From NCBI RefSeq assembly GCF_005848555.1, contig NZ_CP040518.1, positions 1 through 64,000 of the forward strand: 64,000 nt of DNA, read 5' to 3'. Source of the stretch: Blautia sp. SC05B48 (GTDB lineage Bacteria; Bacillota; Clostridia; Lachnospirales; Lachnospiraceae). The position numbers and the translations under genes are program-made. This document shows positions 25,536 to 44,318 of the stretch, piece by piece. Under the pieces are notes generated by a model. It was not told the DNA's origin. It worked only from the letters and a program-made list of their open reading frames with translations, and did not search any database. Numbering within the stretch: position 1 is the first letter of the stretch; every line of letters starts with the position of its first letter.

Positions 25536-26929
25536 TTCACACCTTCTCTTGTATCTTTGAGGATGATACCTTTTTTCAGGAGCTCATCACGGATCTCATC
25601 TGCTCTCTTGAAATCCTTTGCCTTTCTTGCAGCCTGGCGCTCCTGGATCAGATCCTCGATCTCTTTGTCAAGAATCTCTTCTTTTTTCTCGATTTTCAAT
25701 CCCAGCACATCACTGAGCTTAAAAAGTTCCTCATAAAGGCCACCTGCAAACTCTTTTGAGCTGTTCTCATCTACGTTTGTGTTGGCAAATTTAACAAGCT
25801 CAAAAATTGCCGCAAGCGCATCTGCGGTATTAAAATCATCATCCATGGCCGCTTCAAATTTGGTAACAAAACCTTCTGCCTCTTTGAGAAGCGCAAGCTC
25901 TTCCTCTGTGATATTCTCTGACGCCCCATTGTCTTTACGGTCACTGAGCTTGCCTGCCGCCTCAAGGATACGCTCCAGAGAGTTCTTTGCTGCTTCCATA
26001 AGATCTGCGCTGAAGTTCAGCGGACTTCTGTAATGTGCGTTCAGCATAAAGAAACGAAGGACCTGAAGATCATACTGTTCACCGATCTGACGAACGGTAC
26101 GGAAGTTTCCGAGAGATTTGGACATCTTGCGGTTATCGATGTTCAGGAAACCATTATGCATCCAGTATCTTGCAAAAATTTTACCATTGCAGCACTCACT
26201 CTGTGCGATCTCATTCTCATGATGCGGGAAGATCAGATCCTCACCGCCTGCATGGATATCGATCTCTTCTCCAAGATATTTCTTAGACATAACAGAGCAC
26301 TCAATATGCCAGCCAGGACGTCCGTCGCACCACGGTGACGGCCAGGACGGCTCGCCCTCTTTCTTTGGTTTCCAGAGCACAAAGTCTAACGGATCTTCCT
26401 TCTGATCCTCACCGGATACCTTAAGAGAACGGAATCCCGACTGGAGATCATCCAGGTTCTTATGAGAAAGCTTGCCATAATCTTTGAATTTCTTTACACG
26501 GAAATAAACGGTCCCGTCAGCTGCCGGATATGCATATCCTTTATCAATAAGAGTCTGGATCATGTCGATCATGCCCTGGATCTCCTGTGTAGCCTGGGGT
26601 GCAGTTGTAGCAGGTTTTACATTCATATCTGCCATATCTTTCTTGCACTCTTTGATATAACGGGTAGAGATTTCCTCTGCGGAAACACCCTCTTCAATGG
26701 CCTTCTTGATGATCTTGTCATCTACATCGGTAAAGTTGGATACATAATTTACTTCATATCCTTTATATTCCATATATCTGCGCACCGTATCAAAAATGAT
26801 CATAGGACGGGCATTTCCGATATGGATCAGATTGTATACCGTAGGTCCGCAGACATACATTTTAACTTTTCCTTCTTCCAGAGGTACAAATTCCTCTTTT
26901 CTGCGTGTCAGTGTGTTAAAAATCTTCAT
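25520..26929 (-). CDS. cysS: Cysteinyl-tRNA synthetase
   Basis: 469 residues from the ATG at 26929 (GGAGGAAGAGTAAC upstream). Class I motifs: [18 protein letters not shown] (first zinc Cys and HIGH-like HIGN, residues 21-38) and KMSKSLGN near 270. Zinc-binding residues C and H occur in WHIECSVM and [10 protein letters not shown] near 205-240. It charges tRNA-Cys. I looked for a T-box leader and found none, since ispF ends directly upstream. Confidence 0.97.
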
Positions 26930-26930
26930 G

Positions 26931-27434
26931 TTACTCTTCCTCCAATTTCCCGATTCTGTACAGGGAGCAGATCGCCTGTGAGGAGATACCCTCTCCCTGT
27001 CCTGTAAATCCAAGGCCTTCCTCTGTTGTCGCCTTGATATTCAGCTGTGATATTTTAATCCCAAGTGCTTCTGCGATATTTTCTCTCATCTTCGGAATAT
27101 GCGGCGCCATCTTCGGTTTCTGAGCAATGATGGTAGCATCTATATTTCCGATCGCATAGTCGTTCTCCTTCAGTAATCCGGCAACATGCACCAGAAGTTT
27201 CACACTGGAGATTCCCTTATATGCAGGATCTGTATCCGGAAAATGCTTTCCGATATCTCCAAGAGCCGCAGCTCCCAGAAGTGCATCCATGATCGCATGG
27301 ATCAGAACATCCGCATCCGAATGGCCCAAAAGACCTTTTTCCCAGGGAATATCAACACCACCAAGGATCAGCTTCCTGCCCTCTGTCAGTTTATGTACAT
27401 CATATCCCATTCCTACTCTCATCAAACCGTTCAT
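26931..27434 (-). CDS. ispF: 2-C-methyl-D-erythritol 2,4-cyclodiphosphate synthase
   Basis: 167 residues; makes MEcPP in the MEP isoprenoid pathway. Metal ligands and active site are seen in GMGYDVHKL near residue 9, [21 protein letters not shown] near 35-55 and DIGKHFPD near 60, and in [16 protein letters not shown] near the end. A GTG at 27437 directly precedes the ATG at 27434, and either could start. cysS begins 1 bp after its stop. Other MEP genes are not in the window. Confidence 0.96.
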
Positions 27435-27493
27435 CACTGCCTTTCCTGAAAATTTATGTCAAGTCAAAAGAACCTTTTATGAGCTGTTCCCGC

Positions 27494-28759
27494 TCAGTAT
27501 GTGAGCATTTTCCGGAGTCTTAAAAGGCTCAGCCTTCTTCTTGTATACGGTGCAAGTCTGAGACTTTCCTCGATTGCTTTTCCCGGCAGTCCGATATCCC
27601 GGACTCTGCTTATGCAGCCGACGATACTCATCATCTCCTGCATATCTGTAACTGCCGGAAGAAAATCTATGATCTTAAGGATTTCCGGAAGTGCACCGGA
27701 AAGTGTTTCTATGCTCACATCATCCAGAAGTTCCGGAGTGTTTTCTTTTTCAAGTGCTCCAAGAATCCCTTTTCTGCCGAAGGTCTCCTGCAGGAGTTCT
27801 CTGTCTCCGTCTGCAAAAGCATGCACTCTGCAGGTTCCTCTTCTGATAGCATCTGCAAGCTTTTTATATTCCAGAAGGACCAACATGGTTGCTGCAGAAA
27901 CCTTCTCCCCGTGAAGAGCATTCAGGTGGCCATTGACCACTTCCATATCCCAGAGGTGGACCATATGGTGTTCCGCTCCGGATGCCGGTCTGGAGTTTCC
28001 TGTCATCTGCATGGCCAGTCCGGAAAGGATCAGTGCATACATCAGCTTCTCACATGCATCTTTCTCTCCTGCTGCGATTTCTTTCAGATTATCCTTAACA
28101 GTCCGGATCGCTTTTGTTTCCAGATTTACCACCTCTGTACAATAGTATTCATTCATAAGAATACTTGCTATCTTCCAGTCTGCCAGCGCAATGTATTTTC
28201 CCAGAATATCCGACACCCCGGCTGCTGTAAGCCTTGCAGGCGCCTCTGCAAAAATATCTGTATCCGCAAAGACAAAAAGCGGCGCAGATGCCTGAAATAC
28301 TTTTTTTACACCATTCCAGGTCATGTCTGCTACTGTGGAAGTAAATCCGTCTGAACTGGCTGCGGTGGGCACAGAGACAAAAGGGATCCGGTACTGATGG
28401 GCGACAAAACGACTGAGATCATGGATCGTCCCTGCTCCAACTGCAAGAACAAGATCGATGTCCTCTTCCATATAATTCTCCACGATCTCCACGGCACGCT
28501 CATCTGCCTCAAGACCTTCAGCATCCAGGATCAGTACCTGACACCGGTCATAGATATCCTCCATCAGTTCCTCTGTAGCTTTGTAACTGTTCGTGTCACA
28601 GATCAGAAGCGGGGAAATATATTCTTTCAGATCACCGTCTGACATTTCCTTTTCCAGTTTCCCGATAGCTCCTGATTCAATTACAATTTCTCTAACGTCT
28701 ATGTGGTGCTCCCTCCCGCAGCTGCAAGGTCGGGCAAAATCGTCCGCATCGACTCGCAT
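27494..28759 (-). CDS. sn-Glycerol-1-phosphate dehydrogenase (AraM/EgsA family)
   Basis: 421 residues. It has the iron-alcohol-dehydrogenase/dehydroquinate-synthase fold: nucleotide-binding LVLAVGAGTIHDLSRF near 101-116, VPTAASSDGFTS near 128, and metal ligands in SGAEHHMVHLWDM near 262-274 and ALHGEK near 283. The family reduces dihydroxyacetone phosphate to sn-glycerol-1-phosphate, the stereoisomer of archaeal lipids; the Bacillus AraM feeds heptaprenylglyceryl phosphate synthesis. No PcrB homologue is seen here. AGGAGG precedes the ATG. It stands first in an apparent araM-ispF-cysS-mrnC-rlmB-sigH transcript. Confidence 0.88.
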   Translation of the reverse strand: MRVDADDFARPCSCGREHHIDVREIVIESGAIGKLEKEMSDGDLKEYISPLLICDTNSYKATEELMEDIYDRCQVLILDAEGLEADERAVEIVENYMEEDIDLVLAVGAGTIHDLSRFVAHQYRIPFVSVPTAASSDGFTSTVADMTWNGVKKVFQASAPLFVFADTDIFAEAPARLTAAGVSDILGKYIALADWKIASILMNEYYCTEVVNLETKAIRTVKDNLKEIAAGEKDACEKLMYALILSGLAMQMTGNSRPASGAEHHMVHLWDMEVVNGHLNALHGEKVSAATMLVLLEYKKLADAIRRGTCRVHAFADGDRELLQETFGRKGILGALEKENTPELLDDVSIETLSGALPEILKIIDFLPAVTDMQEMMSIVGCISRVRDIGLPGKAIEESLRLAPYTRRRLSLLRLRKMLTY

Positions 28760-28840
28760 GTACTTATGTCCTCCTGACTTCTTTTAATGATTCACAGCGT
28801 ATTTCTCTGTTCGCTGAATGATACAATATTACAGTTTGGT

Positions 28841-28869
28841 ATTATACAGGATTTTTTTTTAGAACGCAA
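28841..28869 (-). promoter_or_regulatory. Promoter of the araM-ispF-cysS cluster
   Basis: TTGCGT (28864-28869), 17 bp containing an A9 tract, TATAAT (28841-28846) on the minus strand. The boxes start only 20 bp after the end of the histidine kinase gene, and I see no terminator between, so read-through from the signalling operon is possible. Confidence 0.65.
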
Positions 28870-28888
28870 TAACAGGCTTTAACTTGTT

Positions 28889-31741
28889 TCATCCTATATA
28901 TTTTGCGATGACAGATATTAAAATACTCAGATCAACCGGCTTTGCAATATGGTCATTCATTCCGGCTGCAACAGCATCCCGCTTATCTTCTTCAAATGCA
29001 TTTGCCGTCATTGCAATGATCGGTATACACGCTTTATCCTTATCTGGCAAGTGTCTGATTTCCTGTGTTGCTTTATAACCATTCATTTGGGGCATTTGTA
29101 TATCCATGAGGATCATATCATATGTTCTTGCCGGCATTTTTGTTATCCTGTTTACACACTGAATGCCATCCTCCACACGTTCAACCTTAAGACCGGCACG
29201 CTCAAGTATTGCTTCTGCAATCTCTGCATTCAGATCATTGTCCTCTGCCAAAAGGATATTCCTGCCTTCAAGGATTTCACTGGCTGTTCCCGAGCTTTCA
29301 TCGTGTTTTTTCACATAATAGCTTTCATCCGCTATCCTGTGTTTTAATGTTACAGTAAAGGTGCTGCCCTTTCCAGGCTCACTCTCCACATCTATTGTTC
29401 CGCCGAGCTGATCAACATATTTCTTTACGATTGACATTCCCAATCCGCTTCCTGTGATTTTGCTCTTTGTAGTGTTTCGCTCACGCGTGAATGCGTCAAA
29501 AATCTTTGTCAGATAATCCTGGCTCATACCGATTCCGGTATCGCTCACCCTGGTCCTTACCATCATGTACCCGGGCTCATCACATACTAATTCGTCTATG
29601 TTTACCATAACAGAACCACCGGATGGAGTATATTTTATGGCATTGCTCAGGATATTGGCAAATATTTCTTTTACCTTGGTAGTATCTGTCAGTATATGTT
29701 CATGCTCTACATTTATTGTGTAATGAAGTGCAATATTCTTTTTCTTTGCTTCATCATCAAATATTTCAAATAAAGTCTGCCGAATATCTTCAATCCGGCC
29801 ATAGTTCTCATCAATTTCCATCTTTCCGCTCTCAATCCGGGCCATATCAAGTACATTATTTATGATAGACAGAAGAAGATTTCCTGACTGCCGCAATTTT
29901 TCCAGATGATCTGAAGTTTCAGGCAGATCCTTTCCTTTTAGTTCTTCCTCCATAAGCTGTGCATAACCCAGAATTGCATTCATAGGAGTACGGATGTCAT
30001 GAGACATATTGTTAAGAAAACGAGTCTTTGCCAGACTGGCATCCTCTGCTTTTTTCAAAGCGATTTCCAGTTTGTCATTAAGTTTTTTTGTATTCTTTGC
30101 CGCAAGCTTTGCGACAGCTTCTGCTTTCTTTGCCTTCCGCAAAAGTACGAGGATAATACCAATGATAGTGAGTACAGAAAGTCCTGCTGTAACAAAAAAA
30201 GCGAGCATATTGTCTTTTATAAAGTCCAAAAATGTTACTTTATCTGCAGTACTGTCATAGATAGCAAGTGCACTTGTAAGCATGTCAGACGGCATAGCCT
30301 TTATAGTTTTATTCAGTATTGACAAAAGGCTTCCCTCTCCACCTCTTACAGCAAAGCATGCCTCCATTGTTTTTGTAAGTGGAACACTCTTGAAGTTTTG
30401 ACTGTTATCATATATCAGCGCCTGGCTTGCTCCCATGAGGAAACAGTCTGCTTTTTCTTGGATGACCATATCTGCTGCATTGTCAAGCGAATCACAATCT
30501 ACGATCTTCCATTCGGGATAGCTGAATGCAATATGCTGTTTTAAGGCATATTTTTCCTTTGGCACAGCTACAGTATACACCTTATTTTCATCAAATTTTT
30601 TCTCATCGGTTACGGCCATCAAACTGTAAGTCCAGGCTGTGTTTGTAAGTGCATATCCGTTTTGTTCTGCAAAATATGGATTCCTGCCGACATAAAAAAT
30701 CATGTCAATCTCACGGTTCTGCAGCGCCTGAATCATTTCATCATAATTATCATATGCCTGTATATTAAATTCCAGTGTCTGATTTCCCAGACAATCTTTG
30801 GCATAGGAGGTATATTCCGCCAGCATACCGGTAAGTTTTCCAGTCTCTTCATCCATGGAAAAGATTGCCGGATCATTGTTCAAAAATCCTATCCGGATAC
30901 CTCCATGCTCTTCCACCCAGATCTTTTCTTTCCCTGTAAGAACCTGAATATAATCAAGTGTAAAATACTTCTTATACAGATCTGTCTTAAAAAAGGGACT
31001 ATCCTGTTCCAGTTGACGCATAGCATAGTCCAGCTCCGTCTTGATATCGCTGCGTTCTTTATTTATTGCAAAATATATGCCTGATTTGCCAATCGTGGTA
31101 ACGGATGATATTCCCTGTTCAGACCAGATAGATTCCTCCAGAGATACAAAACAGTCGATCTCATGATTTGCTAATTTCTTTTCGACATCATCATTATTAT
31201 TCACATTTACATGTTCTGTATGTATGCCATTCTTATTTTCCCATTCTGTCAGCATGAGCTCAGGTTCTGTATCCATGAGCACACCTACACGTTTCCCATC
31301 CAGAGACTTGAGATCAGACATTCCAATATCCGTATCCGATAAATCAGCATAAAGGATATATTTTTCCTCCCCCATCGGTTCATCCGGGAAAAGCATCTTT
31401 TGTGCACGTTCATCGGTGTAAGAGATATCACCCATGATATCAATCTCACCATTTTCAAGCTTATCAAAACAGTCAGACCAGTCACATTTCACATACTCAA
31501 GTTTCCATCCGGTGTAACCTGCCAGAGCCTGCATGAGTTCGTATCCATATCCTCGTCTTACACCGTTTTTATCGACATAATTAAAGGTATCCTCAAATGA
31601 GCCGACACGGATGATCCGTGACTGCTTTTCATCGTTATTCGTCTCGGCAGCCCGGCATGGTACCGTCAATACCATCCATATTCCTAAAACCACAAATATA
31701 CCAGCACATAGTACGATTGATTTTTTTCTACTTTTATCCAT
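28889..31741 (-). CDS. BvgS-like hybrid histidine kinase with two solute-binding sensor domains
   Basis: 950 residues from the ATG at 31741 (AAAGGAAAT upstream). Order: hydrophobic signal/anchor (8-25), two type-3 solute-binding domains outside the membrane (about 38-255 and 270-490), transmembrane helix (about 500-525), coiled linker, HisKA with phospho-His in NNMSHDIRTPMNA (His 581), HATPase (DTGIGMS and GSGLGMS near 735-770), and a C-terminal receiver with DMILMDIQMP (Asp 880). The tandem flytrap layout is that of BvgS/EvgS and suggests sensing of amino acids or similar solutes. No Hpt domain is present in the protein; a free Hpt is encoded 6.5 kb upstream. Last gene of the signalling locus. 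Confidence 0.92.
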   Translation of the reverse strand: MDKSRKKSIVLCAGIFVVLGIWMVLTVPCRAAETNNDEKQSRIIRVGSFEDTFNYVDKNGVRRGYGYELMQALAGYTGWKLEYVKCDWSDCFDKLENGEIDIMGDISYTDERAQKMLFPDEPMGEEKYILYADLSDTDIGMSDLKSLDGKRVGVLMDTEPELMLTEWENKNGIHTEHVNVNNNDDVEKKLANHEIDCFVSLEESIWSEQGISSVTTIGKSGIYFAINKERSDIKTELDYAMRQLEQDSPFFKTDLYKKYFTLDYIQVLTGKEKIWVEEHGGIRIGFLNNDPAIFSMDEETGKLTGMLAEYTSYAKDCLGNQTLEFNIQAYDNYDEMIQALQNREIDMIFYVGRNPYFAEQNGYALTNTAWTYSLMAVTDEKKFDENKVYTVAVPKEKYALKQHIAFSYPEWKIVDCDSLDNAADMVIQEKADCFLMGASQALIYDNSQNFKSVPLTKTMEACFAVRGGEGSLLSILNKTIKAMPSDMLTSALAIYDSTADKVTFLDFIKDNMLAFFVTAGLSVLTIIGIILVLLRKAKKAEAVAKLAAKNTKKLNDKLEIALKKAEDASLAKTRFLNNMSHDIRTPMNAILGYAQLMEEELKGKDLPETSDHLEKLRQSGNLLLSIINNVLDMARIESGKMEIDENYGRIEDIRQTLFEIFDDEAKKKNIALHYTINVEHEHILTDTTKVKEIFANILSNAIKYTPSGGSVMVNIDELVCDEPGYMMVRTRVSDTGIGMSQDYLTKIFDAFTRERNTTKSKITGSGLGMSIVKKYVDQLGGTIDVESEPGKGSTFTVTLKHRIADESYYVKKHDESSGTASEILEGRNILLAEDNDLNAEIAEAILERAGLKVERVEDGIQCVNRITKMPARTYDMILMDIQMPQMNGYKATQEIRHLPDKDKACIPIIAMTANAFEEDKRDAVAAGMNDHIAKPVDLSILISVIAKYIG

Positions 31742-31790
31742 ATTTTTTATTTCCTTTATTTGTGTGGTTTTTCTGATACTCCGAACACCT
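31731..31790. repeat. Duplicated leader, copy A
   Basis: This 60-bp stretch, covering the first codons and upstream region of the BvgS-like kinase gene, matches 38111-38170 at 52 of 60 positions. The first 29 bases are identical and the matches continue through the non-coding part. See copy B. Confidence 0.85.
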
Positions 31791-34731
31791 AATCCAGGTT
31801 CTTCTGCAGGATGCTGATCAATTCCTCTATGACAATTGGTTTGGACAGGAACCCATCCATACCACATTTCAGTGCTTTCTTTCTGTCCTCATCAAAGGCA
31901 TTGGCAGTCATGGCAAGAATAGTAATTCCTGCCAGCGCCGGATCATCCAGCGCACGGATCTGTTTCGTGGCCTCATATCCGTTCATTACAGGCATCTGCA
32001 CATCCATCAGCACAAGATCATAATTACCCGGTGTAGAATTTCGGACTTTCTGCACTGCCTCGACACCATTTTCGGCAGTATCAACCAGGAATCCATATTC
32101 ATTAAGGATTTCCACAGCAATTTCGCTGTTCAGTTCGTTGTCTTCCACAAGCAGTATACATCTGCCCCTGAAATCCGAATCTACTGACGGAAGGATTGTA
32201 TCCTCTGCCAGCTTCTGGCCGATAGCACTCATCAAGGTATTTCTGATATCTGACATGAACATTGGTTTTGCACAGAAAGCAGTCACTCCGGCCGCCCTGG
32301 CTTCCACTTCGATATCTGACCAGTCATATGCAGTCAGGATAATGATTGGCGTATCATCGCCGAGGCTGCGGATCTGGCGGGTAACTTCAATGCCATTCAT
32401 ATCCGGCAGACGCCAGTCGATGATATAAGCATGGAACGCATCTCCCAGTTCCATAGACTGCCGTGCACGTAGAACAGCTTCCTTGCCGGAAAGTGTCCAT
32501 TCCGAACGCATTCCAACCCTCACAAGCATTTTTGTCACGCTGTCACAGGTATTAAAATCGTCGTCTACAACTAATGCTTTAAGTCCTTCCAGTTCTGCGA
32601 TCTTCTCTATACGTTGATGCTCAGACTGAATCCGAAATGGCAGACGAACAATAAATTCAGTACCTTTTCCCTGTTCTGTATGAACCTCAATGGTACCGCC
32701 CATCATATTCACAATGTTCTTGGTAATGGCCATACCAAGCCCTGTGCCCTGGGTCCTGCTGACAGTGGAAGTCCGCTCTCTCTCAAAGGGAGAAAATATC
32801 TTCTTCACAAATTCCTGACTCATGCCAATTCCGTTATCCTTTACCCGGATTTCGTACAGTCCACTGCCTTTCTGTGTCCCAGGACACTGTCTGATCCGGA
32901 CAGAGACGGTTCCTCCGGCTGGTGTAAACTTGACTGCATTAGACAAAAGATTCAGCAGTATCTGGTTCAGTCGCGTCTTGTCACAATAAACATCCTCATT
33001 GGTAACATCCATGGCATCCATATAAAGTTCCAGCTGCTTCGCATGGATCTGCCCACTGATGATCGTCTTCAGGTCATGAAGTACATCTGACAGACTGACC
33101 TCTGTTTCTTCCAGATGGATCTTTCCGCTCTCAATCCGGCTCATATCCAGGATATCGTTGATCAGTGAAAGCAAATGGTTACTGGAGGAAAGGATCTTAC
33201 CCAGATAATCCCTGACTCTTTTCTTATCATCAATATTACTTACAGCCAGTGTCGTAAAGCCGATGATCGCATTCATTGGCGTCCGGATATCGTGAGACAT
33301 ATTGGAAAGGAAATTACTCTTAGCCCTGTTTGCTGTCTCCGCAGCACGTACTGCCTCAGAAAGTGCCTGATTCATATTCCTGTCAGAGGTACGGTCCGAC
33401 ATAACCAGAATATATTTCTTCTTCCGGTTCACCTCACTGCCCATTGCCACAATATGAAACCAACGCCGTTCTCCTGTTTTCTGATGAACATATTCAAAAT
33501 CCCATTCCTTCTGTTCCGAAGTCTGGATTCCCTCCAGATAATTCTTCTTCGGATTCTTAGAATCCCGTGGATGCAGTTTTCCCAGAACATAAATATCCTT
33601 CCGGATCTGCTCTACCGTAAATCCCAACAGTTTTTCCACATTCGGGCTGACATAATCTGCCTCATATGTTTTGGCATCCAGCATCAGGAAAACATCATCC
33701 ACATTCATTGACAGCTTTTGAAACAGCTCATCCCTGTACAGGATCTCTGTATCTTTTCTCCTGAGACTTGCCCTGCTTTTTTGAATGATAAGGCTGATAA
33801 AAAAGGCGGCAATACAGAGCACGATCATGCCAACAAGAAGCATTGTACTACGCTGCAGGCTATTCATACTGGCATTGACAATATCCGCCTGGACAAGTCC
33901 CAGAAACATCCAGTCCTGGATATCTGATTTTTCATAGACCAGATAGTAGCTCCTTCCATCCAGATTCACCAGCATCGCATCGGTACGTCCTGCTTTAAAC
34001 TTTTCCGAAAGCTTATTGATCTCTTTTTCAGACATATCGGAATTCTCTCTCAGAACACCGAAGAAATTATACACATTCCCCCATGACTCAAAAGAATGAT
34101 CGACCACAACACGGCCATCCGGATGAACAATAAAACTCTGGGCATTTCCATTAAAAGCAGAAATATCCAGTACATCTATGATATCAGAGTTTTCATAAGC
34201 AATGGCAATCGCATCATATTCAAATCCCTGATAAATTCCATGAGCCCTGGGTGTAGCAAAAACAAGTAGCTGGGATTTTCCGGGAACTGCTGCATTTGCT
34301 ATCACATCATTTCCCTGCCGGATCTCCTCTTCAATATTTTCCTGTAATCCAAGATACCCGGTTTCGCCTGTTATCACCTTATAGTTCCCGTCAGCTGACA
34401 GAAAATAAAATTCTAAAAATCCTGCATCTTCCTGCGCTTTCTTTATATAATCACGAATTTCTTCTTCACTGGCGGTATTCTGCAGATTCTCACCCCACAT
34501 ATGAAGATAGGTCAGGTTCTTATCTGTCAGTTCTCTCAGCATATTATCAGACTGATGAAAAACCTCCGTCAGATGAGATACACTTTCCTCATAAATAGTT
34601 TTCGACACAAATCCAAAATATTGGAAAACCATCAAAGCAATTCCCACCAAAACAGCTATAAAGACAGCTGCCTTTAATTGTTTTCTCCTGACAGGCTTCT
34701 TTCTATCTGTATTATGATTCTTAATATCCAT
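31789..34731 (-). CDS. Cache/PAS hybrid histidine kinase with two receiver domains
   Basis: 980 residues from the ATG at 34731, whose ribosome binding site GAGGTG lies in the end of the upstream gene; a GTG at 34740 is also in frame. Order: transmembrane helix (about 18-40), extracellular dCache-like domain (about 41-295), second helix (about 300-322), PAS (about 340-455, with RRWFHIV), HisKA with SNMSHDIRTPMNA (His 480), HATPase (KDNGIGMS, GTGLGMA), receiver 1 (IIDWRLPDMNG, Asp 772) and receiver 2 (VLMDVQMPVMNG, Asp 910). Receiver 1 has Trp after the phospho-Asp. Stop-start overlap with the lipoprotein gene implies coupled synthesis and probably a shared stimulus. Confidence 0.92.
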   Translation of the reverse strand: MDIKNHNTDRKKPVRRKQLKAAVFIAVLVGIALMVFQYFGFVSKTIYEESVSHLTEVFHQSDNMLRELTDKNLTYLHMWGENLQNTASEEEIRDYIKKAQEDAGFLEFYFLSADGNYKVITGETGYLGLQENIEEEIRQGNDVIANAAVPGKSQLLVFATPRAHGIYQGFEYDAIAIAYENSDIIDVLDISAFNGNAQSFIVHPDGRVVVDHSFESWGNVYNFFGVLRENSDMSEKEINKLSEKFKAGRTDAMLVNLDGRSYYLVYEKSDIQDWMFLGLVQADIVNASMNSLQRSTMLLVGMIVLCIAAFFISLIIQKSRASLRRKDTEILYRDELFQKLSMNVDDVFLMLDAKTYEADYVSPNVEKLLGFTVEQIRKDIYVLGKLHPRDSKNPKKNYLEGIQTSEQKEWDFEYVHQKTGERRWFHIVAMGSEVNRKKKYILVMSDRTSDRNMNQALSEAVRAAETANRAKSNFLSNMSHDIRTPMNAIIGFTTLAVSNIDDKKRVRDYLGKILSSSNHLLSLINDILDMSRIESGKIHLEETEVSLSDVLHDLKTIISGQIHAKQLELYMDAMDVTNEDVYCDKTRLNQILLNLLSNAVKFTPAGGTVSVRIRQCPGTQKGSGLYEIRVKDNGIGMSQEFVKKIFSPFERERTSTVSRTQGTGLGMAITKNIVNMMGGTIEVHTEQGKGTEFIVRLPFRIQSEHQRIEKIAELEGLKALVVDDDFNTCDSVTKMLVRVGMRSEWTLSGKEAVLRARQSMELGDAFHAYIIDWRLPDMNGIEVTRQIRSLGDDTPIIILTAYDWSDIEVEARAAGVTAFCAKPMFMSDIRNTLMSAIGQKLAEDTILPSVDSDFRGRCILLVEDNELNSEIAVEILNEYGFLVDTAENGVEAVQKVRNSTPGNYDLVLMDVQMPVMNGYEATKQIRALDDPALAGITILAMTANAFDEDRKKALKCGMDGFLSKPIVIEELISILQKNLD

Positions 34732-34736
34732 TCTTC

Positions 34737-36587
34737 TCACCTCAGAGTCATATAATCTTCAGGTTCTGCAAGAATGGCATCACGATCTGAAACATATCCT
34801 GTCCAGGTATCTTTCACAGTGGTATCTCCTCCATCAAACACAATATTCTCATCTGCCGGATAAGCCTCCATGTATTTTGGTGTCGCAAGACAGGTTACCG
34901 TGAAAGTATCCTCATCCTGAATTTGTTTTCCGCCCGTTGTAACTTTGCTCAATGAGTAACCATCTTCTGTTTCCTTGATTTCCACAGAAATACCACTGAC
35001 CACCGGCAGAGAGCCACGGTTAAACGGATTAAAGCCTCCCTCATAGCCTTCTACAAAGTTTTTAACTATCTCTTTCAGTTCAGCACCGCTCATCTTGCTG
35101 CTGTAAGCTGCCAGACCATTTGGCATGATCATATCACCTGCCATTTTTTCTGTATAACCGGCTTTCAGCACATTTCCGGTAAAGCTGTTTCCGGTTGCGA
35201 TCAGTACATCCGTCCCATAGATGCCGCGCAGGGTGTTAGCCATAACAGAATAGGCTTCATTGCCTCCACCGGTATGGAAGCGATTGGAATAAGTTTTCTT
35301 TGAATCCAGCACAATATTCTCAGAAGTGGATTTTTTTTCAAGAAGCTGGGAATTAAATGACTGATAAGCCTGCTCTGCATCATATTCTCCTGAGATCATC
35401 TTAGAAACCACATCCTTGGAAACAGAGAAAAAGTCATTTGACGCAATACGGATATACATGTGGTTTTCCTCTATCACAGGTTTCACATCTTTCATATATT
35501 CCGTAAGATGGATATCCACATCCTGACTGTAGCTTAACAGATCCTGTCCATCACTAATGATCCGGTTCTGCGCATCCTCCGAAAGCATTGTGTTCAGTAC
35601 CTTCATTGCTTTCTTTCGACGTGTCTCATCCTGTGTCAGATTGCGGTTTAAAGCCACCTGGAAATATGGTGTAGTCATAATCCACTTTTCACCGTTTTCC
35701 TGAAAGAATGGAAGAAACGTTGTGTTAATACCCTGATCCTGAAACATTTTTACACTGGCAGAGCTGCCAAAGTACATGGCAAGTCTGTTACTTTGATACA
35801 TCTCAACTATATCATCATAAGTCATGTTCAGATCATCCTGGCTAAGCCCTGTATCCTGGATGAACTGTTTCATACGTTCAAAAGCCCCCGGCCAGACGGA
35901 ACTGTCCAGACCTTCTCTCTCTGTATTATCCGGGCCACTGTAGGTAGTACGCCACTTACGTCCGGCCACAGAAGACAACTCTGATGCAGACAGCCCCTGC
36001 AACATCTCCATACAGGTATAATCATAATAATAATCTGCCGTAAACCCGCAAATCCCCACTTTGTCAAATTCCTGGCAGGCAGAGACAAAGCTTTCGTAAT
36101 CTGTCGGAAGAGGGATATCATATTTTTCAAAAAGGTCTTTGTTCACTACAAAACCATGTGCATCCGCACACACGGGAAGCCAGTTTACGCTTCCATCCTC
36201 ATTCATAAAATTGCTGAGGTATGTATCATAGACAGCCCCTGCCGCATTTGTTGTGGAAAGATCCATCAAACTGTCTTTCAGAGGATTTGCATCATGCAGT
36301 GAAAAACGACAGCAGGTTATAATATCCGGCAATCCATCATTTTCCTTAAGGAACTTGTAGAAATCCAGATCATTATTCCCTACTACAAATTCAACATTGA
36401 TATCCGGGAGCTGTTCCTGGATGTATGGTGCATATTTTTCATACAGGTTTGTGCTCCACAAATACACCGTGATCGTATCTGCATCTTCTTTTTCCGCGCT
36501 CTTCCCGCCACAGCCTGACAAAAGTGATATAACTGCCACCATCACCAGGAACACCGGCAAAACTTTGTTCCATTTTTTCTTTTTCAT
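34737..36587 (-). CDS. Lipoprotein: solute-binding domain fused to 5'-nucleotidase C-terminal domain
   Basis: 616 residues from the ATG at 36587 (AAGGAGGATCCCA). A lipobox LSGC puts the lipidated Cys at 26, so the protein is anchored outside the membrane. Residues about 40-420 resemble family-1 extracellular solute-binding proteins (TITVYLWSTN, GLPDIITC, AMYFGSSA). Residues about 430-600 resemble the substrate-binding C-terminal domain of 5'-nucleotidases (EAYSVMANTLRGIYGTDV, IATGNSFTGNVLKAGYT, KMSGAELKEIVKNF), but the metallophosphatase domain is absent. No ABC permease genes are nearby. With the kinase gene overlapping its stop, a role as ligand-binding co-sensor is more likely than transport; this is inference. 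Confidence 0.8.
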   Translation of the reverse strand: MKKKKWNKVLPVFLVMVAVISLLSGCGGKSAEKEDADTITVYLWSTNLYEKYAPYIQEQLPDINVEFVVGNNDLDFYKFLKENDGLPDIITCCRFSLHDANPLKDSLMDLSTTNAAGAVYDTYLSNFMNEDGSVNWLPVCADAHGFVVNKDLFEKYDIPLPTDYESFVSACQEFDKVGICGFTADYYYDYTCMEMLQGLSASELSSVAGRKWRTTYSGPDNTEREGLDSSVWPGAFERMKQFIQDTGLSQDDLNMTYDDIVEMYQSNRLAMYFGSSASVKMFQDQGINTTFLPFFQENGEKWIMTTPYFQVALNRNLTQDETRRKKAMKVLNTMLSEDAQNRIISDGQDLLSYSQDVDIHLTEYMKDVKPVIEENHMYIRIASNDFFSVSKDVVSKMISGEYDAEQAYQSFNSQLLEKKSTSENIVLDSKKTYSNRFHTGGGNEAYSVMANTLRGIYGTDVLIATGNSFTGNVLKAGYTEKMAGDMIMPNGLAAYSSKMSGAELKEIVKNFVEGYEGGFNPFNRGSLPVVSGISVEIKETEDGYSLSKVTTGGKQIQDEDTFTVTCLATPKYMEAYPADENIVFDGGDTTVKDTWTGYVSDRDAILAEPEDYMTLR

Positions 36588-36621
36588 TGGGATCCTCCTT
36601 CTGAGCCTCCTTTGCATTTTT

Positions 36622-38121
36622 CTATTTTACAATATTAAAATATCCAACGACCCCGATGTATCCATCCTTCTTTAAAGGCGACCACAATGTATGCAACTTC
36701 AGTTTATACATTTGGCGGACATTCTCCACCGTTGCTTTTATCTGCACAGAGATTTCTTTATTTTGTACAGATGTCTGATGTAATAAAGCCTGAATATGAT
36801 GAACATCTTCTTCATTTACTCCGAATTCTTTGAACAGATTGAAATTCGGATTATTTCTCTGACATAATATCTGCTGCTTTCCGTTTAATATAGTCAGCTG
36901 ACCTGAAATTGTATTGTACTCAATTGAATTCATGCCACTGTTCGATTTGAAGAAATCGAGTTTTTCCTTCATGACCCTGACAACATTCTGTGAATAATTA
37001 TGATTCGGTAAAGATCTGTCGCTGAGTATCTCATTTGAAAGTCTCTGTACTTCATGGTAATAGCTAGTATCATCCATCTCTTTATCAATCATTTTTGAAA
37101 GCTGAAGACTCAGTTCTTTCAGACACATAAGGAGGATGGGGTTAAATTGTCCACATTGCCCATCCAGGATCATTTGAATCGCTGTGTCATGATCAAATGC
37201 TTTCTTATAACATCTTTCACTTGTAAGTGCGTCATAAACATCGACAATCGACACCACCTGTGCGGAGATTGGTATTTCTTCTCCTTTCAGGCCATCCGGA
37301 TAGCCTTTTCCATCCCATCTTTCATGATGCCATCTGCAGATTTCCCATGAAGCACGTACCAATGAATTGTCTTTTGGGAAATGCATATCCCGGATCATAT
37401 CTGCACCAAGCTCACTATGAGTTTTCATAATCTTGAATTCTTCATCGGTAAGTCTGCCGGGTTTGTTCAGAATTTCTTCCGAAATACGGATCTTACCAAT
37501 ATCATGAAGAGAAGATGCTGTTGTGATCAAAGAAATATCTGCCTCTGTCATAGGATAAGCATCTGTTATTTTTACCAGTTGTCTCAGCATCATTTCCGTT
37601 GCTGTTTTAATATGCAGGATGTGTTCTCTGCTCTCACTGTTACGTGATCCCAATACATTACTCAGAATCCGGATCATAATATTATTATTTTCTTCTTTTT
37701 CGTAAACCTGATCATAAACCACATTGATCAGATGCTTTTGCTTCATATAGAGTCCAAGGGTATTCTGAACTCTTTTCTTTACAATCACAGAATCAAACGG
37801 TCGTGTGATATAATCCGTGATTCCCAGCTCATATGCCTTACGCATCGTATCAACAGCATCTTCAGAAGATATCATGATTACCGGAGTTTCATCTATACAC
37901 CGACTTTGGTTCATCCATTTCAGAACTTCAAAACCATTCATCTGTGGCATATTGATATCTAAAAGCATCAGATCGATTCCCGGATTTTCTCCCATAATCT
38001 GAATTGCCTGATTTCCATTTTCAGCTTCCAGGTAATTATAAGTTTCTCTGAGAATCTCCTTCAACATATCCCTGTTAAATTCTGAATCGTCTACGATCAG
38101 GATCTTTTGTCTTTTATCCAT
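36622..38121 (-). CDS. Response regulator with HD-GYP c-di-GMP phosphodiesterase domain and PAS-like C-terminus
   Basis: 499 residues. Receiver (5-125): acidic pair Asp 11/12, phospho-Asp 55 in LLDINMPQMNG, but the usual Lys after beta-5 is Arg 107 (DYITRPF). HD-GYP (about 145-335): HDIGK with His 206-Asp 207, then HHERWDGKGYP with GYP at 273-275 and DVYDALTS, all intact, so hydrolysis of c-di-GMP is expected. The final 160 residues end like a PAS domain (LHTLWSPLKKDGYIGVVGYF). It lies between the free Hpt gene and the lipoprotein gene and is the likely output of the relay. A c-di-GMP riboswitch heads the locus. Confidence 0.92.
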   Translation of the reverse strand: MDKRQKILIVDDSEFNRDMLKEILRETYNYLEAENGNQAIQIMGENPGIDLMLLDINMPQMNGFEVLKWMNQSRCIDETPVIMISSEDAVDTMRKAYELGITDYITRPFDSVIVKKRVQNTLGLYMKQKHLINVVYDQVYEKEENNNIMIRILSNVLGSRNSESREHILHIKTATEMMLRQLVKITDAYPMTEADISLITTASSLHDIGKIRISEEILNKPGRLTDEEFKIMKTHSELGADMIRDMHFPKDNSLVRASWEICRWHHERWDGKGYPDGLKGEEIPISAQVVSIVDVYDALTSERCYKKAFDHDTAIQMILDGQCGQFNPILLMCLKELSLQLSKMIDKEMDDTSYYHEVQRLSNEILSDRSLPNHNYSQNVVRVMKEKLDFFKSNSGMNSIEYNTISGQLTILNGKQQILCQRNNPNFNLFKEFGVNEEDVHHIQALLHQTSVQNKEISVQIKATVENVRQMYKLKLHTLWSPLKKDGYIGVVGYFNIVK

Positions 38122-38170
38122 ATTTTTTATTTCCTTTATCCATGTGGGTTTTATGATATTCCGGACACCC
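38111..38170. repeat. Duplicated leader, copy B
   Basis: Matches 31731-31790 at 52 of 60 positions, including the ribosome binding site, the poly-T/A block and 40 bp of non-coding DNA upstream of the HD-GYP regulator gene. Both genes start with Met-Asp-Lys. The coding sequences then differ completely, so this is a duplicated control region and not a gene duplication. Confidence 0.85.
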
Positions 38171-38200
38171 GGTCATAAACAGAAAGTCGTGTCGCATCAC

Positions 38201-38560
38201 TTAATTCGACAGTCCCTTCTTTATTTCTTCAATCATCATTTCATATACTTCTGTTACTTTTTCCATTGCCTCCGATATCCCCGGCTGCGCTCCGGTTCTA
38301 TCTCTCAAAAGTTCTGTTAACTCATTACTAACCTCATACAGACGGTCAAAAGAAAGATTCTGACAAACCCCTTTCAATGTGTGTGCACTGCGGAAAGCAT
38401 CTTCATAATTTCTATTCTTCAATGCCAGTTTTAACTGCGGGTAACTCTGATCCTCAAGGAACTTTAATGTAAATTTCCGAATCAGTGCTTCGCTTCGAAG
38501 GCGTCCTAAAACATCTTCATAATTTCCTCCGATAGCTTCATAGCATTCCTGTATTGTCAT
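38201..38560 (-). CDS. Free histidine phosphotransfer (Hpt) protein
   Basis: 119 residues, a single four-helix Hpt domain. The phosphorylatable His is His 60 in RSAHTLKGVCQNLSF, the standard Hpt motif, with helix-forming sequence on both sides. Free Hpt proteins shuttle phosphate between the receiver of a hybrid kinase and that of a response regulator. Both hybrid kinases of this locus end in receivers and lack an Hpt domain, and the HD-GYP regulator has a receiver, so this protein completes the relay. Confidence 0.9.
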   Translation of the reverse strand: MTIQECYEAIGGNYEDVLGRLRSEALIRKFTLKFLEDQSYPQLKLALKNRNYEDAFRSAHTLKGVCQNLSFDRLYEVSNELTELLRDRTGAQPGISEAMEKVTEVYEMMIEEIKKGLSN

Positions 38561-38607
38561 AATTTTGTCCTCCTATTATGTTTCACTGCTTATTTATCAT
38601 TGCTACA

Positions 38608-38814
38608 TCAATTACATTCCACCAATTTATGAATTACTTTTATCAGTAATCCCAGATCAACAGGCTTAACAATATGTTCATCCATCCCTGCTTTTTTTGC
38701 TCTTATTCTGTCCTCCGTGAATGCATTTGCTGTCATTGCAATGATCGGTATTGTCTTTGCAACTTCATAACCATTCATTACCGGCATCATAATGTCCATA
38801 AGAATGACTTTCGA
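38608..38814 (-). pseudogene. Remnant of a receiver domain, probably of a lost hybrid kinase
   Basis: Only the C-terminal half of a receiver survives, from KVILMDIMMPVMNGYEV to the end. An in-frame stop (38815-38817) precedes it. It lacks the acidic pair and first strands, and about a dozen residues are missing between MNGYEVAK and TIPIIAMTANAF compared with the receiver of the BvgS-like kinase at 28889. The closest visible relative is that kinase (shared MTANAF and HIxKPVDLxxLI). The break point abuts a dispersed hairpin repeat. It stands where the first gene controlled by the riboswitch would be expected. Confidence 0.8.
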
Positions 38815-38820
38815 TCACAG

Positions 38821-38856
38821 CGGATATTCGCAATCCGCTTCGCTGCTTGTTCATAA
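38821..38856. repeat. Dispersed hairpin repeat, copy 1
   Basis: 36 bp starting CGGATATTCGCAATCCGC; matches 44262-44297 at 32 of 36 positions. It contains the inverted repeat GCGGAT/ATCCGC. It sits between the riboswitch terminator and the receiver remnant, four bases from the truncation point. Confidence 0.75.
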
Positions 38857-38870
38857 CCGAATAACACCAT

Positions 38871-38897
38871 AAAAAAGCACCGTCTCACAGACAGTGC
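38871..38897 (-). terminator. Expression-platform terminator of the c-di-GMP riboswitch
   Basis: On the minus strand GCACTGTCT-GTG-AGACGGTGC (one G-U) followed by six T residues. It begins 8 nt after the aptamer and ends about 60 bp before the receiver remnant. Ligand binding presumably alters formation of this hairpin; whether c-di-GMP turns expression on or off is not settled by inspection. Confidence 0.85.
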
Positions 38898-38904
38898 ACG
38901 TCAT

Positions 38905-38980
38905 TTCATGCAACTGGCTGCCATTTTACAGGCCCTGTAGCTTTGCGTCCCAGATTTTCATCTGGTTTGCCGATCATCCT
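38905..38980 (-). ncRNA. c-di-GMP-I (GEMM-I) riboswitch
   Basis: The minus strand shows the GEMM-I core in order: GGCAAACC, a stem closed by a GAAA tetraloop (AGAT-GAAA-ATCT), GGGACGCAAAGC, GGGCCT as tetraloop-receptor partner, then AATGG and AGCC leading to the second stem. Spacing matches the known aptamer. It has a promoter upstream and a terminator directly downstream. It controls, at least in part, the locus containing the HD-GYP phosphodiesterase. Confidence 0.93.
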
Positions 38981-39018
38981 TATTATAGCTTTTACACGTA
39001 TACCAAAAAACTGGTCTT

Positions 39019-39047
39019 ATTATACTATAGCGCTCTACTGTACACAA
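39019..39047 (-). promoter_or_regulatory. Promoter of the riboswitch transcript
   Basis: TTGTGT (39042-39047), 17 bp, TATAAT (39019-39024) on the minus strand; start near 39012, about 32 nt before the aptamer. A second TATAAT at 38982-38987 lies just before the aptamer but has no good -35 box. The DNA from 39048 to 39126 shows nothing else. Confidence 0.7.
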
Positions 39048-39126
39048 GAAAAATATTACCGTTTCAACACCTGAAAACAAAAAAGGAGTGCACTCCAGAA
39101 CAGAGAAAAATACTTTATCCCCACGA

Positions 39127-39170
39127 AAAAAATCCCCGCTGTCTGACTGAAATCAGACAACAGGGATTTT
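39127..39170 (-). terminator. Terminator of ridA
   Basis: Near-perfect stem built on AAATCCC...GTCTGA / TCAGAC...GGGATTT (39131-39168) with T runs at the minus-strand 3' end. Confidence 0.85.
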
Positions 39171-39181
39171 TTATCAAATCA

Positions 39182-39553
39182 TCAGATTGCTGCGATCACT
39201 TCTACCTCGCAGAGAACGTTCTTTGGCAGTGTCTTGACTGCAACACAGGAACGTGCAGGTTTATTTACGAAATATTTGGCATATACTTCATTAAATGCCG
39301 CAAAATCGTTCATATCTGCAAGGAAGCATACTGTCTTGACTGCATTCTCATAGCTGGAACCGGCAGCTTCCAGAACTGCTCCGAGATTCTTCATAACACG
39401 GTCAGCCTGCTCCTCGATGGTTGTTCCAACTACCTCTCCGGTTGCCGGATCCACCGGGATCTGACCGGATGTGTAAAGCGTATCTCCATGGATAATAGCC
39501 TGGGAGTATGGTCCGATTGCTGCAGGTGCTTTGTCTGTATGTACTGTCTTCAT
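39182..39553 (-). CDS. ridA: RidA-family enamine/imine deaminase
   Basis: 123 residues, small trimeric enzyme that hydrolyses reactive enamines such as 2-aminoacrylate from amino acid dehydratases. Family marks: IGPYSQAI near residues 13-20, TSGQIPVDPATGEVVG near 29-44, and the C-terminal RSCVAVKTLPKNVLCEVEVIA with the substrate-binding Arg near 103. Start has AAAGGAG upstream. It has its own promoter and terminator. Confidence 0.95.
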   Translation of the reverse strand: MKTVHTDKAPAAIGPYSQAIIHGDTLYTSGQIPVDPATGEVVGTTIEEQADRVMKNLGAVLEAAGSSYENAVKTVCFLADMNDFAAFNEVYAKYFVNKPARSCVAVKTLPKNVLCEVEVIAAI

Positions 39554-44229: not shown

Positions 44230-44318
44230 ATAAACAAAATCCGTTTCCGGATTTAATCGATCGGATATTCGGAATCCGCTTCGCTACTTCCTCATAAACA
44301 AAATCCGTTTCCGGATTT
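44230..44318. repeat. Direct repeat pair and dispersed hairpin repeat copy 2
   Basis: A 25-bp sequence (ATAAACAAAATCCGTTTCCG and five more) occurs at 44230-44254 and again at 44294-44318. Between them, 44262-44297 is the second copy of the repeat at 38821. The flanking TTAATC(A/G)ATCGGATAT also occurs twice (44216 and 44253). The region looks like a small array of hairpin units built up behind the aspartokinase gene. Confidence 0.75.

Follow-up and report, generated by a model that had tools for sequence, protein, structure and literature searches.

A receiver remnant behind a c-di-GMP-I riboswitch in Blautia sp. SC05B48 and its probable origin from a hybrid kinase gene of a variable phosphorelay operon

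Operons headed by a c-di-GMP-I (GEMM-I) riboswitch and SBP-linked (BvgS-like) hybrid kinase phosphorelays with a separate Hpt protein are the described systems closest to a locus in a 64,000-nucleotide stretch of the Blautia sp. SC05B48 genome (NZ_CP040518.1, positions 1 to 64,000), which is called the window throughout. With the first group the locus shares an RF01051 match above the gathering threshold and a terminator-like hairpin, both at the head of an operon, and with the second it shares HisKA, HATPase, receiver, Hpt, and a receiver-output protein encoded in a single operon. It departs from the riboswitch operons in that a broken kinase remnant now lies behind the riboswitch, and in that the nearest relative retains the riboswitch without any operon. 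It departs from the phosphorelays in that the output protein, encoded behind a c-di-GMP riboswitch, is a phosphodiesterase of the HD-GYP type, and in that the modules of window-type operons vary between genomes.

Among the entries listed by an open-licence PubMed Central search, nothing concerned this locus. Searches with the operon against plasmids and phages yielded no record covering 80% of the query (9 and 13 partial matches, respectively), and no relative was found in viral contigs.

Riboswitch leader and downstream genes

Read on the minus strand, the locus runs from the riboswitch through the hairpin, repeat, remnant, Hpt, HD-GYP regulator, SBP, and HK983 to the BvgS-like kinase, as follows.

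38906..38981, minus strand: c-di-GMP-I riboswitch aptamer (RF01051; 59.8 bits against a curated gathering threshold of 35, E 3.4e-9)
38877..38897, minus strand: intrinsic-terminator-like hairpin of the riboswitch leader, 9-pair stem followed by T6 (1 found; mean of 0.7 in shuffled sequences)
about 38819..38865, minus strand: one copy of a dispersed repeat with two hairpins, which lacks the left arm of the first and meets the leader within GTTATT (own-genome matches and leader alignment)
38608..38814, minus strand: receiver remnant of an HK734-type hybrid kinase gene (last 64 alignable codons; Pfam and alignment with relatives)
38201..38560, minus strand: intact Hpt gene, 119 aa, with HTLKG and with AGGAGG before the ATG (PF01627, 40.5 bits, and sequence)
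36622..38121, minus strand: response regulator with a receiver and an HD-GYP-type domain containing HHERWDGKGYP (PF00072 and PF13487)
34737..36617, minus strand: solute-binding protein, SBPa626 (PF13416/PF01547)
31789..34740, minus strand: hybrid histidine kinase with two receivers, HK983 (Pfam)
28889..31867, minus strand: BvgS-like hybrid kinase with SBP_bac_3, HisKA, HATPase, and receiver (Pfam)

The leader is conserved in all 12 leaders that were aligned, and AGTATAAT is identical in each of them. A promoter scan upstream of the riboswitch listed no site, and when the leader RNA was folded (z -1.85), no clear switch model emerged. The response regulator matches PF13487 with 97.5 bits and carries an HHExxxxGYP-like motif, which we take to be a mark of HD-GYP phosphodiesterases, and phosphodiesterase activity is predicted for it on these grounds.

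The remnant and its intact relatives

The remnant, which reads SKVILMDIMMPVMNGYEVAK-TIPIIAMTANAF...LVECN-stop, matches Pfam Response_reg at profile positions 45-110 of 111 with 44.8 bits and E 1.6e-11, so the match is not due to chance. The N-terminal half of the receiver, and with it a complete domain having both the N-terminal acidic pair and the phospho-acceptor Asp, is absent; the likely phospho-acceptor Asp and the Thr and Lys of the remaining half are retained. A TGA codon at 38817-38815 lies immediately 5' of the remnant. Compared with five intact relatives, exactly 33 bp (11 codons) are missing in frame at about 38754/38755, and in some of these relatives, for example in L039, TGCAAAG flanks the lost stretch on both sides. 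The original observation of half a receiver, preceded by an in-frame stop and gapped by about a dozen residues, was therefore accurate in all three respects.

Its choice of the receiver of the BvgS-like kinase as closest relative was not borne out. Within the genome itself, a receiver at 413307 (66%) has a slightly higher score than that of the BvgS-like kinase at 28892 (63%), and outside this genome the orthologue is the receiver of HK734, with 73% identity over residues 660-734. Only these residues of HK734 align in the window, which holds no complete frame of HisKA, HATPase_c, and receiver of the HK734 type; all three are present in one frame in the HK734 of L039. A nucleotide comparison of the remnant, covering 36 of the 80 loci found, gave 75-80% identity to L035, L036, L038 (Eubacterium ramulus ATCC 29099), and L039 over 193-276 window bases, with L035 and L036 at about 80%.

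Intact HK734, defined as an unbroken stretch of at least 733 of the 734 residues, was found in 9 of the 26 stretches of our module map, corresponding to 8 genomes, since L039 and L187 are from the same genome, which was counted once. A full-length HK734 lies between the riboswitch and the HD-GYP gene in Blautia sp. Marseille-P3087 (L039), E. ramulus 21 (L036), and Faecalibacillus intestinalis (L035), and the intact kinase that had been expected between the terminator and the Hpt gene thus exists in relatives, where it lies between the terminator and the Hpt or HD-GYP genes. The HD-GYP gene directly follows HK734 on the 3' side in L035, L036, and L039/L187. In L039 the order is riboswitch, SBP_bac_3, HK734, HD-GYP, SBP, HK983, and BvgS-like kinase, the last four genes being those of the window at 79-91% identity. 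The loss of a hybrid kinase is supported, but its supposed place directly behind the riboswitch has to be revised: where relatives have HK734, an SBP_bac_3 gene precedes it, and HK734 is the second gene or, in L035 and L036, where an SBP and another kinase precede the SBP_bac_3-HK734 pair, the fourth. The operon of L035 lies in a contig labelled F. intestinalis, which we take to be a distant lineage, with an integrase fragment downstream, a case of either transfer or mixed assembly.

The alignment with E. ramulus 21 (window 38808-38533 against L036 7596-7902, 80%) begins in the receiver, spans the spacer, and ends in the opening codons of Hpt. There, at L036:7870-7930, the Hpt sequence jumps to its last codons, an internal deletion that leaves a 13-codon ORF, with an intact HK734 beside it and the HD-GYP gene after it. 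The order HK734, Hpt, HD-GYP would therefore most simply be ancestral to both loci, which would have lost opposite members: in the window the kinase is gone and Hpt is kept, and in E. ramulus 21 the kinase is whole and Hpt is deleted.

Among the 64 genus genomes searched, own included, the single genome matching across riboswitch, repeat, and remnant was that of SC05B48 itself, so the finding that would have argued against decay, the same fragment in all relatives, was not made. This absence from other genomes also counts against the idea that the fragment is a functional, truncated receiver-like small protein modulating the relay, which we consider very improbable. The internal deletion is in frame, the residues of the phosphorylation half are kept, 68 codons are open, and a coupled start is conceivable at an ATG that overlaps the stop codon of a 27-codon ORF located 3' of the terminator. 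However, the profile is covered from 45 to 110 only, the TGA stands immediately upstream, and no clear Shine-Dalgarno sequence precedes an in-frame ATG.

The private changes of the remnant also speak against such a protein. Over 64 codons, the remnant was compared with five intact HK734 genes (L040 was left out, its receiver lying outside the search pattern), and at columns unanimous in the five it showed 1 synonymous and 4 non-synonymous private changes; the same counts for the intact genes were 1:3, 1:2, 6:7, 3:2, and 2:2. The Ka/Ks of the remnant was 0.57 against L035 and 0.87 against L036, and 0.24-0.39 against L038, L039, and L188, the latter about the range among the ten intact pairs (0.14-0.36). 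These figures agree with recent decay without proving it, and because a comparison of 64 codons is too short, weak purifying selection on the remnant could not be rejected.

Broken modules were also seen in other arrays. In Blautia sp. MSJ-9 (L034 = L191), a contig of which is 100% identical over 12,977 bp to one of the genus genomes, the HK734-like gene behind the riboswitch is in pieces, and in the C42 array of G005 (L190:8300-9010) HD-GYP aligns only to residue 54, a Y1_Tnp (IS200-like) gene lies nearby, and Hpt is interrupted by in-frame stops. With decay this common in such arrays, the present case is less surprising.

The insertion site in close genomes

Two features were defined by comparison with other genomes.

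28876..39187, no strand assigned: the complete inserted stretch, as judged against G016, in whose empty site the matched flanks are 67 bp apart
28876..28898, no strand assigned: what is probably left of an inserted element's right end, now fused with the BvgS-like gene at the end of that gene (common to G004 and G005, unmatched in the empty site of G016)

In G016, a genome of the same genus, window positions 26214-28875 correspond to L318 1-2660 and 39188-44220 to L318 2728-7781, which identifies the intervening sequence as inserted; riboswitch and operon lie inside this 10.3-kb insertion, between an araM-like and a RidA gene. In G005, the same araM-like gene has as its neighbour an element that encodes a relaxase and the C-terminus of an integrase; the end sequence of this element is common to G004 and, for about 23 bases, to the window. 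Domains of integrative elements comprise an integrase and a relaxase in G005 and an integrase tail in G004, and none were found in the insertion of the window. At L313:16714-17433, a single ORF combines a sigma-70 region-4 domain with an integrase C-terminus and looks like a deletion fusion within a decayed integrative element.

G004 is the nearest relative, with 96.5% identity in the flanks. There, 305 bp stand in place of window 28899-38822, made up of the tail of SBP592, the opening codons of the kinase gene after it, the final integrase codons, and the element end; SBP592 is whole behind riboswitches in G023, G078, and G079. Owing to this replacement, G004 has an orphan c-di-GMP-I riboswitch (L186:15541-15803), in which leader, terminator, and repeat are kept at 92%. 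The empty site, the partly eroded operon, and the orphan riboswitch occupy the same chromosomal position in close genomes, so the order of loss and the fate of an orphan can be studied directly.

The repeat junction and the course of the loss

A repeat of 36 bp had been described near the break and again at 44262. The second copy was confirmed, and the copy at the break extends further, over about 38819-38865.

44262..44302, minus strand: second copy of the dispersed repeat in the window (85% over 41 nt against 38821-38861)

In its own genome the repeat has 19 copies at E<=0.0012, that at the break included; a twentieth match at 426566 is a riboswitch leader. In the element, a conserved linker (TATGAGCAAGTAGCGAA) connects a first, variable hairpin with a second one (GCGGATTGCGAATATCCGC). 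Of 34 copies, 33 have a predicted ORF downstream, which in 30 of these 33 shares the orientation of the repeat, and the repeat is possibly a 5'-leader element. Four tandem copies with 71 bp spacing occur at G000:C1:819744-820002 (L012, L032). No Rfam family reached its gathering score over the repeat, either in the window or in the full copy of L036, and Clostridiales-1 RNA, at 18.5 against 48 bits over the junction, was far below its threshold and was discarded.

As a short dispersed palindromic repeat with GTAG beside a hairpin, the element resembles REP elements moved by RAYT (Y1_Tnp) proteins, in which GTAG next to a hairpin is a typical motif. Unlike these, it is not located beside Y1_Tnp genes: for 30 of the 38 Y1_Tnp matches in the 25 genomes searched, the surrounding locus was inspected and no flanking copy of the repeat was seen, the one clear repeat match among them being some 600 bp off rather than adjacent. 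Assignment to the RAYT/REP family was therefore rejected.

Other leaders read GTGTTATTTCA and full repeats read CAGTTATTCGGTT, which places the join within the 6-mer GTTATT, with the left arm of the repeat gone. The leader/repeat junction is common to the window and G004, and the gene tails beyond it differ (HK734 versus SBP592). Judged from these sequences, the join would most simply predate the split of window and G004, the truncation of the kinase being separate or later. A loss through the repeat, as originally proposed, is thus supported loosely, in that the break lies at a repeat, but a pairing of two copies is unsupported, and the repeat join, shared with G004 and its SBP592 tail, need not be the event that cut the kinase. 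Homologous recombination between a copy in the leader and one in the kinase gene seems to us improbable. A copy lies exactly at the junction and many more are present in the genome; yet no copy was found in the leader or HK734 of the intact relatives mapped (among the mapped stretches, the repeat matched only L186, L194, L036, L313, and the window). Moreover, the element has lost its left half and shares no more than the 6-bp GTTATT with the leader, which is better explained by end-joining or slippage.

The shared junction with different tails could also mean that the kinase was not lost here. A block that began inside an HK734 receiver broken beforehand, and that continued through Hpt, HD-GYP, SBP, and two kinases, may have recombined into a G004-like leader-repeat site, a course of events that we regard as rather unlikely. 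The operon is indeed a mosaic, its HD-GYP gene being nearer to L034-L037 (85-86%) than to L039 (79%), and its SBP and HK983 genes being near to L039 (88% and 91%); moreover, none of the 26 mapped stretches holds both SBP592 and HK734. Against this, the broken receiver was not found elsewhere in the 64 genus genomes, the G004 locus ends in a deletion into an integrase tail, and long serial SBP-kinase arrays exist (L035, L036, L194), so that an ancestor could have had the two tails one after the other.

We therefore consider it very likely that a kinase gene of the HK734 type was lost in place from an operon headed by a c-di-GMP riboswitch and that the remnant is its 3' end, now a pseudogene; with equal confidence, this operon of origin contained an SBP, the kinase, Hpt, the HD-GYP regulator, and further SBP and kinases. 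On this in-place loss, one or more deletions between leader and receiver would have removed the SBP and kinase genes, using short direct matches, with the dispersed repeat remaining where the ends joined; the 33 bp would have gone by another slip, between copies of TGCAAAG. With the upstream genes gone, the remaining transcript could still be read from the ribosome site of Hpt itself, so that the riboswitch would now directly head Hpt and the HD-GYP phosphodiesterase. It would then report c-di-GMP to a transcript encoding a likely c-di-GMP phosphodiesterase, forming a feedback loop, and relay input might arrive through Hpt from the two remaining downstream kinases. The fragment, which probably makes nothing useful, is an ordinary pseudogene in an unusually fluid locus.

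More tentatively, and with somewhat less than even confidence, we suggest a mobile phosphorelay array of modular build, with the leader as its stable head. Leader and modules would travel from one chromosomal site or gut species to another, in part with integrative elements, and the sensor modules behind the leader would be exchanged and lost again and again, at times reciprocally; the remnant would be a footprint of this process. If so, the kinase lost and Hpt kept here, the reverse in E. ramulus, and the leader alone in G004 would be cases of such turnover. On either reading, the comparison shows a signalling operon under second-messenger control that exchanges its inputs and keeps its RNA switch and output enzyme. 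Separately, L041 and L042 are 99.95% identical over 15.6 kb in contigs labelled Thomasclavelia saccharogumia DSM 17460 and Dorea phocaeensis, which reflects either recent transfer or assembly contamination.
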